In this document: in pieces, positions 4,201 through 52,904 of the stretch | Layout: each line of letters starts with the position of its first letter | How positions within the stretch are numbered: the stretch's first letter is position 1 | Source of the DNA: Daphnia carinata | Taxonomy: Eukaryota; Arthropoda; Branchiopoda; Diplostraca; Daphniidae | Direction of reading: 5' to 3' | DNA: 64,000 nucleotides | Assembly: GCF_022539665.2 (NCBI RefSeq) | Contig: NC_081333.1 | Coordinates: 7,996,971-8,060,970, forward strand | The notes under the pieces: model-generated | The model's input: only the letters and a program-made list of their open reading frames with translations | Database searches by the model: none | Told to the model about the DNA's origin: nothing | Position numbers and translations under genes: made by a program

Positions 4201-7200
4201 GCCAACGGCGCTGAAAGTGAACGATGCCTGTAAAAGGGCGTACTGCCGACCGTGCCCGGCCATCCGAAGGCCATCACTGATCTTTCCCCATCGTTTTTGG
4301 GAGGGTGAGATGATGCTGCACGTTGCCTTCTGTTGTTGCTCAACTGACCGATTTCCCATATGCGGAACGAAAACATACAACCTAAAAAATTGGTTTCCCC
4401 TTGAGCTTTTGTTAGGCAGACAATCGAATAGGAAAAAATATGGCAGTTGAAGAGAAAACAGAAGATTCTTGGGGTTTGTCTAAGCAATTGAATATGTGTG
4501 TCCGCAGTCTTGACGTTGTTTGAATTTCGCCGAACGCATATGGCAAAAAAAAAGGATGAAATGAGATTAACTATTAAAATAAACCTGTTTTTAATTCCAT
4601 GTGAAGATGCCTTTGTGTGTCGACATTTAGTTTTTCGCTGTACCACTGTCGGCTTTCCAGCACACGTTGTTTTTAACTGTATTTGACAGATGAGTTTCTT
4701 TAGTTGAAAACAACACGGCGATATTCACCAATGCAAGCATTTTGGATTCTTTCGGGGCAAATTTGAATAACAAATAACTGACACGGAATGAAATCAGCCC
4801 ATAGCAATTATTATTGTTATTGTTATTCTGATTGTTTTTGCTTTCGGCCTCGGGTTGCCTTTTCTAACATCAGGTTTCACCGATGGCAATAATAGTTTAA
4901 CAGCTCACCATAGTCAAACAGGTTTCTGCTTATTTCTTTATACTTGGAATGTGATGAACAATGTCTTTGTCTGCCTAACATAAAACTGAGGTAGAATTTA
5001 CACTAGTCGAGATTATAAACCTTAACGAAAGTACCGAAACAATTGACTGAAATTTGTTTCATCGGCTGGCACCCTGTTGCTTAAGTACAACATTGCGAGA
5101 TCGCATTAATTTCTATCCTCTTTTTGTTAGTTTTTATGAATAATCAACGTAAGCCTTTTTTTCTTCTTTTTTAAGTTATTATTCATTTTTTTCTTTAGGT
5201 AATTCTCAACGTAAACTCATTAGGAGAACCTTCAAAATAAGTAAAAAAAAAACGTAGGTTTCGCGGGTTGTGAGCGTCATTTGTGTGGGGACGTGTGTGT
5301 CAGCTTGACGTCCATCTGCCATCTTTTCTCCACTGGCCAACGAGGTTAAAATAGCCATTTTCAAAATGGTAGAACTGCTGGCTGGCAAATTAGTTGTTTC
5401 CATGCTATCTTAAGTGGGTATTTACTGAGTGTTTACCAGCAGTTTTTGTCTCTTCTACAACTGGAAAATTTACGACCAAAAAGGTATTTATCTTTTTTTC
5501 TTGTTTTTCCCCTTCCCCCATACCCTCGCCACTTCTCTAGAGAGTGATGGAAAATATCGTGTTGCATGCTGGTGTTGACCAAATTCACTTTGGTAGGTTC
5601 TTTGTAGAAAGCGAAAAAAAGAGAACCGATTTACTAAGTTCAGTTCATTTACCTCAAGTCAGATAATAATCGAGCGACAAGAACCACTAGAAATAATGGA
5701 GAGTAGGCAAGGAGAAAAAAAGATGAAAAAAAAAATTTCCAGGAAAAGGCAAGAAAAAAAAGTGTAAGAAGAATGGACATCAAGAGAGGCCAATTAGCCC
5801 GTGACGAAGTCGATTATCTATGTCCTTTGTTCTTTCTCTATCTATCTATGGCTGCTTTGTTCAATTCGTGTTGCTGAAGCTCCAAAATCGGAATGTGATC
5901 ATGTAGCGTTGTTATGCGGTTAAATGCAGGACATACCCCATGATCGTTATCATTAAAAAGGTTGTAGATCGACGTCCAGAAGCGGGTACTTTAAGTGTAT
6001 ACACACACAACGATATCACACCACAGCGTACAGTAATGTGAAAGCTAGTGGGGGTGAAAGACACTAAAACTCCACAACAAAAAAGTTTTATTTTACTTTT
6101 GTTTAATCTAGACTTTTTTTTTCTTTTTCTAGGTTGTCCTTTACGATAGGTCGTTGTGGCTCGATGAGACAGGCCTAAAGTTTTTGTTTTGTGCCGACCT
6201 TGGAAACCGTATAACATCTAACAGCAGGTAGCAGCAGGTATACACTTAATTCATTTCAAGATATAATCACATCATTCGAGCGCATTCTTTACCTGTTACG
6301 CAGATACCCTTCTCTGCCTTAACTGCTGTGTGGTTATCCCTTCAAGAAATTTCCATTAGGAAAGAGCTTGCTGAGCCTTCACTTCTCTGGTCTTTGTTTC
6401 CCTATTCGTTGGCATGGAGAGAAACTGTCAAAACCTCAAAAGGAAGGAAGAATAACAAACAAAGCAGCTCTCCAAGAATTGTTTGTTTTGCTCAGTGAAT
6501 CGACAGGTCCTAGTTTCGAATCAACAAATAGTGCAGCTATGCCTCGTGGAGCTGCAGGCAAAAGAAGACAAGGAAGAACAGAAAAGTAAGAATGTAGGTA
6601 GCCTCAATCTAACGTCCCTTTCTTAGCCGGAAGGACTGAATCGGCAATCCAAGTCACACATACAGACACATGTAAGATATAGCACTGTAAAATTCTTTTT
6701 TGCCGTTGTTGTTAATATGCATGGGCGGCTACGATGCCAGTCAAGTCTCGTGCGGGAAGTGAAAGCAGCTATTTGTTATCAGAGAGCACGTCCGCACGAC
6801 ACACCGTATACAGCGTGGCAGCGCTAGATGGAAGACGTGTCTAGATGGCGACGTAGTATGCGCAGCAACACAACAGACAGGTTAGACGGATAGGTAGTGA
6901 AGTACTTGGAAACGAACGAACGAGAAAAGGAGAATTTCTCTTTGAATTTTTGTTGTTTTCTCTTCTCCTTTTATTCTTCCCTTCGTTGTCTTCGTCGGCC
7001 CTTACCAAATTGGGCACCGTGTCAGATCAGACCGGGAGAGAGAGAGAGAGAAATCCATGTCAGGATGGCCCGCTTTCACCAAAACGACGGACGATCCATT
7101 CCAGCTCAACAGGTGAAAACTGACCCGCTGTAAGCCATTATTGTTTCTCGGCCAAAAGAACAAATCAAGAAAGACGTATCGTTCCACTGCTGTTGTGCTA

Positions 7201-43031: not shown

Positions 43032-44605
43032 TTAATAATACTTTGGATGCTCAGTGTAATAGCTTGGTGCAGCATACGGTGTGGTGTAGTACTCGGGGGC
43101 CTTTGTGGTATAGTATTGGGGAGCCTCAGTGTAGTAAGATGGAGCTGCGTAAGTTGTGGTGTAGTATTCTGTTTTCTTGGTGTAGTACTCCGGGGCTTTC
43201 GTCGTGTAGTATTCATCAGCCTTGGTGGTGTAGTATTGCGGAGCCTCGGTGTAATAAGCCGGGGCAGCGTAGGTAGTGGTGTAGTACTTGGGGGTCTCGG
43301 AATAGTAGCTCCGAGCAGCATACGTTGTGGTGTAGTATTCAGGAGCCTTTGTAGTGTAGTATTGCGGAGCTTCAGCCTGGTAGTACTTGGGAGCTGCAGT
43401 GTAGTAAGCCGGGGCAGTGTACGTTGTGGTGTAGTATTCAGCCTTCTGTGTGTAATACTCCGGGGCTTTAGTCGTGTAGTATTCAGCAGCTTTTGTGGTG
43501 TAGTATTGAGGAGCTTCAGTGTAGTAAACCGGAGCAGCATACGTTGTTGTGTATTGTGGAGCCTCAGTCTGGTAGTAGCTTGGGGCTGAGTAATACTTGG
43601 AAGCTTCGGTGTAGTAAACTGGGGCGGCGTATGTTGTGGTGTAGTACATGGGCGGCTCGGTATAATAGCTTGGCGCAGCATATGTTGTGTACTCTGGAGC
43701 CTTTGTAGTATAGTACTGCGGAGTCTCAGTGTAATAGGCTGGAACGGCGTAAGTTGTGGTGTAGTATTCAGCAGCCTTCGTAGTGTAGTACTGAGGAGCC
43801 TCAGTGTAGTAAGACGGGGCTGCATAAGTTGAGGCGTAGTAAGTAGGTTCCACGTAGTACGAAGGAGCAGCCGTTGTGTAATAACTTGGGGCAGTGTAGT
43901 ACGTCGGCTCAGCATAATAAGTCGGGGCAGCCGTGGTGTAGTATGTCGGAGCGACGTAGTACTTGGGTTCCTCGGTCGTGGTGTAGTACGAAACAGTTGT
44001 TGTGTAGCTCGGCGCAGAGTAATATTTCGTGGCCTCAGTGTAATAAGACGGAGAACCGTACGTTGTGGTGTAATACTCAGGGGCCTTTGTGGTATAGTAG
44101 GCGGGAGCTTCGGTGTAGTAGCTTGGAGTGGCGTACGTTGTTGTGTAATACACTGGCGCCTCTGTGTAATAGCTCGGTGCAGAGTAGTATCTTGGGGCCT
44201 CCGTAGGGTAACTCGGAGCTGCGTACGTGGTGGTGTAGTACTCGGGCGCCTTTGTAGTGTAATAAGTGGGCGCTGCATACGCCGTGGTATAGTATTCGGG
44301 AGCCTTAGTGGTGTAGTAAGAGGGGGCTGCATACGTCGTGGTGTAGTAAGACGCCGGAGTGGTGTAGTATGCAGAAGAAGGCGAGCCCATTTGTCCACCC
44401 TTGGCCTGCCCAACCATCAGACAGACAACGGCCAACAGCAGCATCGCGCCGTAGTTAGCTGAAGCAAGATAATACACACATAAATCTCTTGCCCCAATTG
44501 AATACAGCGCAAATACACACGTTACAATATTGCAATTGATTGATACAAAACTAATCGCAGGTGTAATTCTTACGACTATAGTAAATGCAACATTAAATTA
44601 CCCAT
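43032..44605 (-). CDS. Tyr/Thr-rich (YYTT repeat) secreted structural protein
   Basis: Two coding exons: 44605-44602 (only ATGG) and 44458-43032 (TAA at 43034-43032). The intron has donor GTAATT and acceptor CTTCAG. The protein is about 477 residues. It starts MANYGAMLLLAVVCLMVGQA, a clear signal peptide. The rest is almost entirely repeats of the type YYTTTYAAPSYYTEAPKYY and TTKAPEYYTT, with no cysteine seen in the mature part. Tyrosine and threonine dominate. Such composition suits a secreted matrix or cuticle component, possibly cross-linked through tyrosines or O-glycosylated on threonines; this role is inferred. A TATA box lies at 44724-44718. A long ORF in another frame (42998-44413) is a shadow of the repeats. 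Confidence 0.85.
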
Positions 44606-45857: not shown

Positions 45858-46467
45858 ATCCGGGCAGGTCTGGAGGATACTAGTATGTCAGTCAAGTGCT
45901 TAGCGCAACCTTTTTGGCTATTTTCCCTAAAACTAAAATCAAAACTGGCAAACCGAAACTGATATCTCTACCGAATCTTAAGTATATTTATTTAAGCGAT
46001 GAAAAAAAATTTCGCCATACCCTGCTATTCAATCATAAAACGGGAAAGATAAATGGATTTTAACCACGACAACTGAACAATGCCAATGCCCTAACGCAAT
46101 AAATCAATGCGACTTCGTGCTAGGCAATTGAACATATAAGGTCACGGTAAATTTACAAATACGCACGATATAGTTCTTACTAATACGTCTTAATGCATAA
46201 TTGTGTTTTAGAAACTACAATGTTGTACGAGCACAAATATAAATCGCTTCATCCGCTTTATGTGATAAAGAATAGAGACAAGTGGATTCGGTAACGACAT
46301 TATGGTTGTATTCAACATTTCATTTAAAAACAACATACGTATGCAACGGCTAGTTATAGATAAATCCATGGCAGGGTAATAACTCATTTTGCAACGAGGA
46401 CAGTAAATAATAAAAGAAGATCTAACCATCCCGTCAACAAGCTTGATGGACAGCACAATTTTTACAA

Positions 46468-47216
46468 TTAATAATACTTTTGGTCGCTCAGTGTAATAGC
46501 TGAGAGTGGCGTACGTTGTTGAGTAATAAGCTGGGGCCTCGGTGTAGTACCTGGGAGCGGCGTAAGTGGTAGTGTAGTACTCTGGCGCTTTTCTGGTGTA
46601 GTAAGGCGGGGCAGCATAAGTTGTGGTGTAGTAGCTAGGTTCCACGTAGTACGGAGGGGCAACCGCTGTGTAGTAACTTGGGGCAGCGTAGGATTTTGGA
46701 GCTTTAGCGTAGTAAGACGGCGCAGCTGCGGTGTAGTATGTTGGAGTGGCGTACGTTGTTGTGTAATACACCGGCGCCTCTGCGTAATAGCTTGGTGCGG
46801 CGTAGTATTTCGGGGCCTCCGAGTAGTAAGTAGGAGCCGCATATGTTGTGGTGTAGTACTCGGGCGCCTTTGTACTGTAGTAAGTGGGGGCTGCATACCG
46901 CGTGGTGCAGTACGGCGCAGCACTTGAAGTTTGATATAAATAACTACCATAGTTAGAAGCCGGCCATTGGCACACTTATGATCGACACAGCGATAAGTGT
47001 AACAGTAGAAGCGTAATGCCATTGATACCTATAGCAGTGGAAGAAAGACATAATTTATTGCTGACATGCCACAGAACTTTGAAACATTGCAAACAAATGT
47101 ACAGAATTAAGTTTGAAAATTTCATTCCAACATTTCATTAAGGGAAATCAATCACTGAACCCTTGCATTACATCAACATCAATTTCTATTCTAATTAAAC
47201 GTTATACTTTACCCAT
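46468..47216 (-). pseudogene. Tyr/Thr-rich (YYTT) secreted protein, decayed copy 3
   Basis: Same design as the intact gene: exon 1 contributes ATGG (47216-47213, donor GTAAAG). Exon 2 begins at 47028 and encodes MGINGITLLLLHLSLCRS. An in-frame TAA (46978-46976) stops it straight after the signal peptide. The frame then continues as CQWPASNYGSYLYQTSS and about 120 residues of YY repeats (TTTYAAPTYYSEAPKYY). Near the end one extra A in the CCAAAAG tract (about 46480) shifts the frame, so the expected KYY-stop terminus is replaced by unrelated sequence to 46208. Two independent lesions make it a pseudogene. The TATA box is at 47308-47302. Confidence 0.75.
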
Positions 47217-47301
47217 TGTTGCACGACGAACTGAAGCTGCTGATGGTAATGCTACGTCGAAGATGAACACTCGACTGATTGTAGCTGGCTCTGCTGTATC
47301 A

Positions 47302-47391
47302 TTTTATACGATTTGATGTCACCCTGATGTTGCTCGCCATCCCAAGCGGGTGTACCAATACACCATGACGTAACCATCAATATTATTACCC
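47302..47391 (-). promoter_or_regulatory. Promoter of YYTT copy 3
   Basis: TATAAAA on the minus strand at 47308-47302. Upstream TGACGTAAC (47366-47374) and CAATATTATTACCC (47378-47391) match the blocks of the other two copies, about 10 bp closer to the TATA box. Confidence 0.6.
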
Positions 47392-48194
47392 TTTCCTTTT
47401 TTTGCGCCCCACACAGCGTGAAGTTGAATGTCAGACAAGGGCATTTCTATGCGCCTAAATTCTGAATGAAAATAAATGAAAACACTTCTTGGAAATAAAA
47501 TTTAAAAGGAGAGGTAACATTAACCTAAAGGTCAATGGCTTTTGGAACATTTCAGCATAATCGGAGGAAATGCCAATTTCACCCTAATTGATCTACCCAT
47601 AAGCAGTGACCTTGAATACATCAATGTCCTCAAGCAATTCAATTTTTAAAAAAATAAAAAAAAAATTTCGCTATTCCGATCAGTAGTTCACTCACTTGCA
47701 CGGTGCACACTAGTGTAGATAGATCTCTCCGGGTGTTTGTGTAGCGTTTCACTCCTTCTCAGTCACGCTCACACCACGAAAGCCTCATATAAGCACCGGG
47801 TTTTGCCTTCGCACGGGTGTATAGTCTAGTTAGCATAAGATAGATTAGAAAAAAACGATGATTAAGGCACAATCATCGTAACACGGGTTACTTTTGCACT
47901 TCACTGCCTCCATGCAATGCACTCTGTATATTTCCCACTTTTGCAATTTGCACACCAACTAGCAATCAAACCTCTCAGCACAATATTCAAACACACTACT
48001 AACATTAACAACCCAACAACTTCCTTAACCTGTTCATTATTAACGAAAAATTTTATTTCAGGACCTATCTGTTAAAAATTGTTTGTCATTCGTGTAGTTG
48101 ATATGTGCTAGCGTTAAGCAGACATGTGTTGTTATTTGATTAATCAAAAGCAATTCTTTGTTCTTTCTTTTTTATTTCGTTCTCGATGAATTAG
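47392..48194. other. Region upstream of tandem-exon gene, no exon recognised
   Basis: This stretch should contain the start of the tandem-exon gene if that gene is complete. No ATG-bearing exon with a matching phase was identified with confidence. Confidence 0.4.
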
Positions 48195-49440
48195 GAGGGC
48201 AATCTCTGGGCGTCACTGTGGACCGCAGGACACCGAGGATCGGCGACACCAAAAACAGGTATCAGTGATAAGTTAAAGTGTACTAACTATGTTTTTTTGT
48301 CTTTTATGTATCTAGATTGGCCGGCCAAAGGACCGAAAAGGCCCAACGAGGATCGTCGTGGGAGCTACAAGATCGCCGTGGGATCGTCGCCATAAAAGGT
48401 ATCAGTGATAAATTAAAGTGTACTAACTGTGTTTTTTTGTCTTTTATGTATCTAGATTGGCCGGCCAAAGGACCGAAAAGGCCCAACGAGAATCGTCGTG
48501 GGAGCTACAAGATCGCCGTGGGATCGTCGCCAAAAAAGGTATCAGTGATAAATTAAAGTGTACTAACTGTGTTTTTTTGTCTTTTATGTATCTAGATTGG
48601 CCGGCCAAAGGACCGAAAAGGCCCAACGAGGATCGTCGTGGGAGCTACAAGATCGCCGTGGGATCGTCGCCATAAAAGGTATCAGTGATAAATTAAAGTG
48701 TACTAACTGTGTTTTTTTGTCTTTTATGTATATAGATTGGCCGGCCAAAGGACCGAAAAGGCCCAACGAGGATCGTCGTGGGAGCTACAAGATCGCCGTG
48801 GGATCGTCGCCATAAAAGGTATCAGTGTTAAACTAAAGTGTACTAACTGTGTTTTTTTGTCTTTTATGTATCTAGATTGGCCGGCCAAAGGACCGAAAAG
48901 GCCCAACGAGGATCGTCGTGGGAGCTACAAGATCGCCGTGGGATCGTCGCCAAAAAAGGTATCAGTGATAAATTAAAGTGTACTAACTGTGTTTTTTTGT
49001 CTTTTATGTATCTAGATTGGCCGGCCAAAGGACCGAAAAGGCCCAACGAGAATCGTCGTGGGAGCTACAAGATCGCCGTGGGATCGTCGCCAAAAAAGGT
49101 ATCAGTGATAAATTAAAGTGTACTAACTGTGTTTTTTTGTCTTTTATGTATCTAGATTGGCCGGCCAAAGGACCGAAAAGGCCCAACGAGGATCGTCGTG
49201 GGAGCTACAAGATCGCCGTGGGATCGTCGCCATAAAAGGTATCAGTGATAAATTAAAGTGTACTAACTGTGTTTTTTTGTCTTTTATGTATCTAGATTGG
49301 CCGGCCAAAGGACCGAAAAGGCCCAACGAGGATCGTCGTGGGAGCTACAAGATCGCCGTGGGATCGTCGCCAAAAAGTATCAGTGATAAATTAAAGTGTA
49401 CTAACTGTGTTTTTTTGTCTTTTATGTATCTAGATTGGCC
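48195..49440. repeat. 140-bp tandem repeat array
   Basis: Seven units with exact 140-bp spacing, plus an eighth shortened by two bases and a partial ninth. Differences are few: GAGGATCG versus GAGAATCG (units 2 and 6), CCATAAAAG versus CCAAAAAAG, one acceptor TATATAG before unit 4, and a few intron substitutions after unit 4. Confidence 0.97.
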
Positions 49441-49552
49441 GGCCAAAGGACCGAAAAGGCCCAACGAGGATCGTCGTGGGAGCTACAAGATCGCCGTGGG
49501 AGCTACAAGGTCGCCGCCTCGAGAACCAGAGATTTACGCCCATTTGGATTAA
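48195..49552 (+). CDS. Tandem-exon gene: nine near-identical exons read in rotating frames (5' end missing)
   Basis: A leading exon (48195-48258, 64 nt) is followed by nine related exons: 48316-48398, 48456-48538, 48596-48678, 48736-48818, 48876-48958, 49016-49098, 49156-49238, 49296-49376 and 49434-49552. The first seven are 83 nt, the eighth 81 nt and the last has a unique end. Each intron is 57 nt with donor GTATCAGTG, a perfect TACTAAC branch site, a T-rich tract and acceptor TATCTAG. Entered in the frame LGVTVDRRTPRIGDTKN, spliced translation rotates through LAGQRTEKAQRGSSWELQ, WPAKGPKRPNEDRRGSYK and IGRPKDRKGPTRIVVGA, ending PREPEIYAHLD then TAA. Frame-c exons (second, fifth, eighth) have CCAAAA where others have CCATAA, avoiding a stop. 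No family is recognised; the product would be Arg/Lys-rich. The start is not found. Coding status is inferred from splice signals and frame. Confidence 0.5.
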
Positions 49553-50590
49553 GAAGAAAAGAAGATGGTACGGTTTAGTATGGCCTAGTCGGCATTTTTT
49601 TTTACTTTTTCCATTTGTTGTGATCTGTGTCATACCAACGTGTTCCTCATTCCTTTTTCCCTACCTTAGTTCCCCTTTAATCATATTGGCTTTACGGGTA
49701 TTTCACTATGCACTGAAATTGCACTTTGCATTTCCCTTTCGATCCATGGTCGTTAGTTGTAGCTGTAACGGTGCGGGTTTGCTTTAGTTCCTGCCCTTAT
49801 CAATCCCACCCTTTTTTTCTTACTTGGTGTAGGTATACTAACGATTTTACTAACTTTTCAAATAGTTTACATAACGAAAGACAAAAAGGCAAATGACAAT
49901 TTGTGTTTTGTCGGTGAAAAGCCAAGAAAATGCAAATCATTTGCAATAAAAAATATGAAAAAATAGTCAAAGTCAAAACTGCTCCATCTGTAAAATCATC
50001 AATATATCGATACATGCCGTACCTCAAGGAACAGGGTTATCATGAAGGTATTTTAAACTTTTGTAACCAATAACGCATTTCAATTTGTAACTTCCCTTAT
50101 GGTTTGGCAACTATTTGGCTGAGCTGGCTTAACAGGTTAACTAAAATGAAGGAGTACATTTTTATTATTTAGCTCGTAACAGCATGCAACAGGTTCTTAC
50201 AAAGTTCATATACGTTTTCAGGTAATTCTACTGTAGTTTGAGAACGTCCAGCCATTTATGCGATGCATTTTTTTGTGTCCAAGAGGACGAGGTCACTGGT
50301 TTAAGTGAGTGCGCCATTATGGAAGTACCAATCGCAATCTTAACCAGAGCTTTCCGGTTACTGCATAAAGCAGGGAACACCATTCTACCAACACCAAAGC
50401 AGTTTACTTTTGATGACATCTCTCATCTGTTCACTTACCCATGACATGTTGTCTGTCAGGTACAAGTATAATGTTTTCATTTGCAATTAATATGCTTTTT
50501 CAGAAGCTCCTGACAGAATATTTACGGAAATATCCAATACGATGAATTTATGTACCATGTATGCTATATAAACAAAAAAAAAATCTGCTA
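49553..50590. other. Downstream of tandem-exon gene; no gene recognised
   Basis: T-rich 3' region. An AATAAA near 49943-49948 could end the tandem-exon transcript. A short plus-strand ORF (50238-50444) ends in SHLFTYP and has no recognisable domain. Confidence 0.4.
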
Positions 50591-52520: not shown

Positions 52521-52904
52521 AACTTGGCAAAAAGTAAAAAATGAACATTAATATTCCAAACATTTTAAGCATTTTGATCATAAATGAAATGGGGTGGCGG
52601 CTTTTTTCGTGTTTGTTTTGCTATTTCACTATTGGTTCATCGCGCGAGTTGCATATACTTATAACACTACTTCGTTAACAGGGACTACTAATATTATGTA
52701 TCACGCTAATGGGAAGGTATACCTGATAAGTATAGATCATAGCATGAAGATATACCTCGTGCTATTATTATAACCTTATCATGCACAGCCATCTGATGTA
52801 CAGTCAGGTTTAAAAATAAGCCCGACTAAAAAATAAGCCCGACTTTTTATTATTTTACGTTACACTGTAGCATACTGGCACGATACGGGAAATCACGTAA
52901 TACT

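Follow-up and report, generated by a model that had tools for sequence, protein, structure and literature searches.

A dispersed family of tandem exon-intron arrays in Daphnia carinata, probably a multi-copy gene family of spliced non-coding RNA

The window analysed here, a stretch of 64,000 nucleotides from Daphnia carinata, carries on its forward strand a tandem exon-intron array between a promoter-like block and a conserved tail, with the following features.

47680..47719, + strand: promoter-like block TCAGTAG...TCACTTGCACG.....CACTAGTGTAGA, conserved in diverged copies
48062..48093, + strand: predicted small exon 2, with acceptor ..TTTCAG before it, TACTAAC at 47997-48003 and donor GTAGTT after it
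48195-48258, + strand: leader exon of 64 nt, starting with GAGGGCAATCT
48259..49433, + strand: tandem array with eight exons, all of 83 nt except for one of 81 nt, and nine introns of 57 nt
49434..49561, + strand: last exon, with partial 20-bp repeats, ending at the tail motif
49562..49585, + strand: conserved 3' tail motif AAGATGGTACGGT..AGTAT.GCC (alignment A1, 19 loci)
49945..49950, + strand: AATAAA polyadenylation-type signal, 383 nt past the tail motif

TRF detects the repeat in the window with a period of 140, 9.0 copies and 98% matches (48249-49501). All nine introns of the array measure 57 nt, start with GTATCA, contain TACTAAC and a T-rich tract, and end in TAG, the first of the seven 83-nt exons beginning at 48316. 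The earlier note on this DNA had described a tandem array of exon-intron units, and this array is real. Nonetheless, some details required correction: the units, described as identical, do repeat but are about 98% alike; the exon of 83 nt ascribed to every unit holds for seven of them, whereas that of the eighth has 81 nt (49296-49376); and the donor, supposed to be uniform, reads AAAAA/GTATCA in the eighth unit instead of AAG/GTATCA. Chance likeness was tested with a 35-place intron pattern, which at ≤3 mismatches gives 191 matches in the genome against 0 for the reversed control; thus, the window array is no chance likeness. Upstream, on the other strand, two tyrosine-/threonine-rich repeat ORFs of the YYTTTYAAPSYYTEAPKYY type are found (window 43032-44597 and 46208-46975, both minus), the former with at most a sub-threshold Cornifin match in Pfam, and the block with the latter being duplicated alongside the array in several loci. 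We take this tyrosine-rich neighbour gene to be Daphnia-like.

When the array was compared with the whole genome (108 Mb, 106 contigs), 50 matches were obtained, and twenty regions were fetched and read. Seven of these (L009, L010, L011, L016, L020, L023, and L024) have a long block in common with the window, including the tyrosine-rich neighbour gene, and another four (L012, L025, L026, and L027) have parts of it, the likeness of the nine remaining copies (L013-L015, L017-L019, L021, L022, and L028) being limited to promoter-to-tail stretches. Some of these nine adjoin ORFs that by eye resemble ordinary genes, for example an SMC3-like ORF in L013. Complete loci hold from 1 to 26 units, the leader pattern occurs at 22 places in the genome (control 0), and AG/GAGGGCAATCT at the leader is identical in 12/12 aligned loci. 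Also, L027 and C3:3735340-3748008 show three truncated leader-array starts within 13 kb, with alternating orientation.

The core of the promoter block (47692-47719) has 84 genome matches at ≤2 mismatches and the tail motif has 79 at the same threshold, with 0 for the reversed control in both cases. Going downstream by up to 8 kb, the first tail met lies on the same strand for 67 of the 84 blocks, at 0.77-4.67 kb, and on the opposite strand for 2 of 84, and a tail of any kind within 8 kb upstream is seen for 2/84; under these thresholds, seventeen promoter blocks and twelve tails are left without a same-strand partner. The TCAGT at the start of the block is presumably an arthropod initiator, and transcription would start near 47682. 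The acceptor of small exon 2 is aligned in most of 12 loci, L017 and L022 having it displaced or missing. Moreover, AWTAAA is present within 500 nt after the tail in 18/19 loci, a sample that includes several close copies, the mean over 200 mononucleotide shuffles being 9.4 and the maximum 16. A hairpin GCC...GGC in the tail was considered and is not claimed, its three closing pairs being invariant and the next pair often broken (A1).

The reading of the array as exons and introns is backed by its relatives. An nhmmer intron profile, whose seeds were picked by their GT..AG pattern so that the set leans toward GT-AG, gave 189 matches in 21 loci, one fragment being dropped to leave 188. All 188 start with GT, 173/188 have AG exactly where the model places it, a count that rises to 185/188 if up to 14 nt downstream are included, and 176/189 intron entries contain TACTAA with C, T or A as the next letter. 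Twelve of the 15 introns off the AG model position belong to L017, eleven of which have their acceptor at the end of TTTAAATAG in place of the usual AG position; two, lengthened by T-rich repeats, belong to L019, and one is a broken intron of L026. This combination of GT-AG introns, branch site and T-rich tract is what a spliced Pol II gene would be expected to have. On the other hand, conservation in the seven splice-signal columns is not significantly higher than in the other intron columns (permutation p = 0.19), so the alikeness could reflect recent exchange and not selection. Two exon-exon patterns gave 0 genome matches at ≤3 mismatches for processed, joined-exon copies. Rfam searches of the window and of 47300-50000 (E up to 2) gave no match, with no snoRNA in the introns of the array, and those of six other loci gave nothing on the array, the only matches being tRNAs in L029/L030. 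The fold z-scores of 9 pieces were unremarkable as regards a structured RNA (-1.48 to 1.79). An array of mirtrons was also considered and dropped, six folded introns having z-scores of -0.13 to 1.79 and no pre-miRNA hairpin.

The coding capacity is where the window and its relatives part. The earlier note had proposed that, after splicing, the same exon is read in three frames in turn up to a last exon encoding PREPEIYAHLD, and that one of these frames, which a TAA variant of the unit would close, meets only units with an A variant. For the window itself, both the open frame and the variant counts are reproduced: in-silico splicing leaves a single frame without a stop over 280 aa, starting in the leader and ending with ...PREPEIYAHLD*, and the A variant occurs in four of the eight units, namely 2, 5, 6, and 8. 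However, the in-silico splicing set comprised 14 arrays with leader and tail found and ≥3 units (L015, L023, L025, L026, and L027 were left out as incomplete, and the parse of L019 is rough), and the window is the only one in which a frame reaches the last exon without a stop, the other 13 complete arrays being closed; for example, L009 carries the TAA variant in 14/14 units. As far as sequence can decide, the protein reading thereby fails the refuting condition set in the earlier note. The one-unit arrays L024 and L028 are open, which is little informative. Leader exons range from 50 to 79 nt, with indels between loci that change the frame. The 167 internal exons of 21 loci divide by phase into 98, 54, and 15, with 47 of 83 nt, 89 of 91 nt and the others of 63-96 nt (a lone value of 170 nt is a split match in L019). 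Substitutions are spread over the three codon positions both between the C9 arms and in the locus consensus exons, although few per exon, and the array ORF 49127-49549 has no counterpart in Pfam at E up to 0.1. Most plausibly, the window owes its open frame to chance, as a coincidence of a single copy, which the earlier note itself allowed.

At E up to 0.01, protein searches yielded two proteins. One of them, OUZ56_030553 of Daphnia magna (P0001), is 34% identical across 74% of the query, having a like leader (GGQSL..), a translated intron and three repeats, each of 34 aa and in frame. Because the intron is read through (GISDKF.CTNCVF being translated intron), P0001 is doubtful as a gene model, and this 'hypothetical protein' is a homologous array partly translated through its intron. 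The best genome match of P0001 by E-value is 45% identical and, at this identity, is not that D. magna gene. The second is an unnamed protein of 212 aa from short contigs, in which the translated tail motif is visible by eye.

Family members also occur as convergent gene pairs, of which there are 15 with tails 5.3-8.1 kb apart, and tails cluster on C9 at 6.0-7.6 Mb (25/79) and on C2 at 2.5-3.8 Mb (13/79), with some near contig ends; from their position, the tail-rich regions of C9 and C2 may be pericentromeric or subtelomeric. Two convergent pairs were read. In the C2 pair (L030), identity between the arm portions covered is 97-99.9%. In the C9 pair (L029, L031, and L035), the arms, of ~5 kb each and both with the promoter block, are 79-87% identical, and this far-diverged copy follows the same plan of promoter block, small exon in a similar arrangement, array and tail, with ten introns of 51-90 nt (51-67 nt for those of the array) and exons of 53-89 nt starting mostly with a GAGGGC-like sequence. 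Conservation between the C9 arms is 94.8% for exons, 95.1% for introns and 38/40 for splice dinucleotides, and one unit of the right arm showed a GC donor in one alignment of the arms; by this near-equal conservation and the GC donor, the divergence of the C9 arms looks neutral. The right arm is ~0.4 kb longer ahead of the tail, the placement of the extra units being uncertain. Inspection by eye of the ends of the C9 palindrome, a single locus, revealed no terminal repeats or target duplications. Inside the L029 and L030 palindromes, in arms and centre, tRNA-like sequences (Ile GAT and Thr CGT; RF00005) lie between the convergent array genes, and just outside the C9 palindrome, within 1-4000 of L031, there is a gag-like ORF of 395 aa with a CCHC-type knuckle by eye.

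Compared between loci, the units resemble one another more closely than the flanks do. Consensus units of 15 loci differ on average by 5.7% in introns and by 9.4% in exons, the exon distances being inflated wherever an 8-nt insertion shifts the alignment, whereas for nine of the loci the sequence upstream and in the leader is just 62-78% identical to that of the window. Within arrays, unit differences are mostly 0.3-3%, being larger in L017, the introns of L018, L019, the exons of L020, and L022. A tandem exon-intron unit thus stays alike between loci despite a flank divergence of roughly 30%, which points to exchange within and between loci, or to a strong constraint on the whole unit.

The array of the window belongs to a family whose members have in common a promoter block, a tail and splice signals, and no conserved frame. 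We consider, with a probability of about 0.6, that this is a multi-copy family of genes for a spliced, probably non-coding RNA, in which an exon-intron unit has been amplified and homogenised; that its members are transcribed, spliced, polyadenylated and non-coding is what we infer from their sequence signals. The window array would then form the main part of one such gene, promoter block and tail being kept together in at least 67 copies. RNA polymerase II would initiate at the initiator-type promoter near 47682, the pre-RNA would be spliced through the very short consensus introns, and the end of the RNA would lie past the AATAAA at 49945, the mature RNA consisting of the same exon, in most loci of 83 or 91 nt, joined in series between the conserved leader and the conserved tail. 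Such arrays could have originated by tandem duplication of one exon plus its intron, with unequal exchange within and between loci keeping the units alike. If the repeat RNA acts at all, it would offer a binding partner many copies of one exon motif, a function as multivalent repeat RNA being a speculation and a weak guess. Doubtful, in our opinion, is a broader version in which an animal genome keeps ~70-80 genes whose product is one exon polymerised by splicing, the number of units varies freely and loci far apart exchange units, where the RNA would be multivalent and the palindromic copies, grouped in two chromosomal regions and close to some contig ends, may link the family to heterochromatin or meiotic drive.

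Other explanations read the same loci differently. The arrays might be a mobile or satellite-like DNA family in which the splice-like signals are a relic, with no RNA processing, and palindromic or segmental duplication spreads the copies. The scatter of 79 tails and 84 promoter blocks over the assembly, the C9 and C2 clusters, the convergent palindromes and the neutral-looking divergence of the arms are all consistent with this possibility; however, one palindrome showed no terminal repeats or target duplications by eye, the ORFs of ≥90 aa within L029 and L030 are by eye unlike a transposase, and promoter, splice and polyadenylation-type signals are kept together in diverged copies, by which we judge it unlikely. 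The convergent palindromes could also yield double-stranded RNA and from it endo-siRNA or piRNA, the dispersed arrays being sources or targets. This role as small-RNA precursor, suggested by the 15 convergent pairs and the near-identity of the C2 arms (up to 99.9%), appears quite improbable, since the tail list shows no convergent partner for the window copy up to 12 kb away and the signal ~0.3-0.4 kb past the tail would stop transcripts short of the palindrome centre.

The two protein readings fare worse. A degenerate protein-coding repeat gene, descended from an in-phase ancestor and now broken in most copies, of which D. magna may keep an in-phase version, would agree with the 34-aa in-frame units of P0001 behind a matching leader and with the exons of the C9 copy, 4/9 of which are divisible by 3 (leader counted, last exon excluded). 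Yet, P0001 includes the read-through intron, the spliced C9 copy has stops in all three frames, and neither the C9 arms nor the locus consensus exons show codon bias, which makes this explanation very improbable. As for the translation of the spliced array into three peptides from the same exon in turn, the 280-aa frame of the window argues for it, and it is largely refuted by the relatives, with their closed frames, leader indels, exon lengths in all phases, lack of codon periodicity, and protein searches that yielded only two matches at E up to 0.01, one of them with the intron read through; we give it hardly any credence.

The spliced RNA gene family that we favour can be compared with known systems. 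Drosophila hsr-omega is a repeat-containing long non-coding RNA dominated by a tandem repeat, for which, to our knowledge, no introns cutting the repeat into exons are known; a tandem-repeat RNA would be present in both cases, but in the Daphnia family each repeat has its own intron. In genes of the Dscam, silk or collagen type, tandem duplicated exons keep phase and coding constraint, whereas the Daphnia family, where exon and intron are likewise amplified in tandem, keeps neither phase nor frame. OUZ56_030553 has a like leader, exon motif and intron, and is annotated as a protein with a repeat unit of 34 aa in frame, the units of the window family being of 83 and 91 nt. Mammalian SNHG14 is stated to carry SNORD116 in 29 consecutive introns and SNORD115 in 48 tandem ones (PMC11608373). 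SNHG14, host of SNORD115/SNORD116, resembles the Daphnia family as a long RNA in which units with introns follow one another in tandem by the dozen; it is unlike the family, where introns are of ~57 nt with no Rfam snoRNA match, exons and introns are near-identical and there are at least 67 dispersed copies. A limited search of open PMC titles and abstract openings returned no description of a family like the present one. If transcribed, the arrays would constitute a large non-coding gene family, with one D. magna relative recorded as a protein, and would offer a natural system in which to study how the spliceosome pairs donors with acceptors among up to 27 near-identical introns in series (L014).

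Finally, some minor observations concern the surroundings of the arrays. Similarity between the window copy and seven sister copies breaks off at 49951, owing to an insertion or deletion specific to the window; this position was considered as the end of the element and discarded, the seven other copies running on in common past it. Further downstream, at 52812-52844, the window has a 17-bp repeat, AAAAATAAGCCCGACTA, which resembles the sequence behind the truncated array copy L023 (after 3405). Also, in L016 (reverse-complemented, 5638-6999) there is an ORF of 454 aa, by eye similar to a hAT-type transposase, ~1.6 kb past the array tail.
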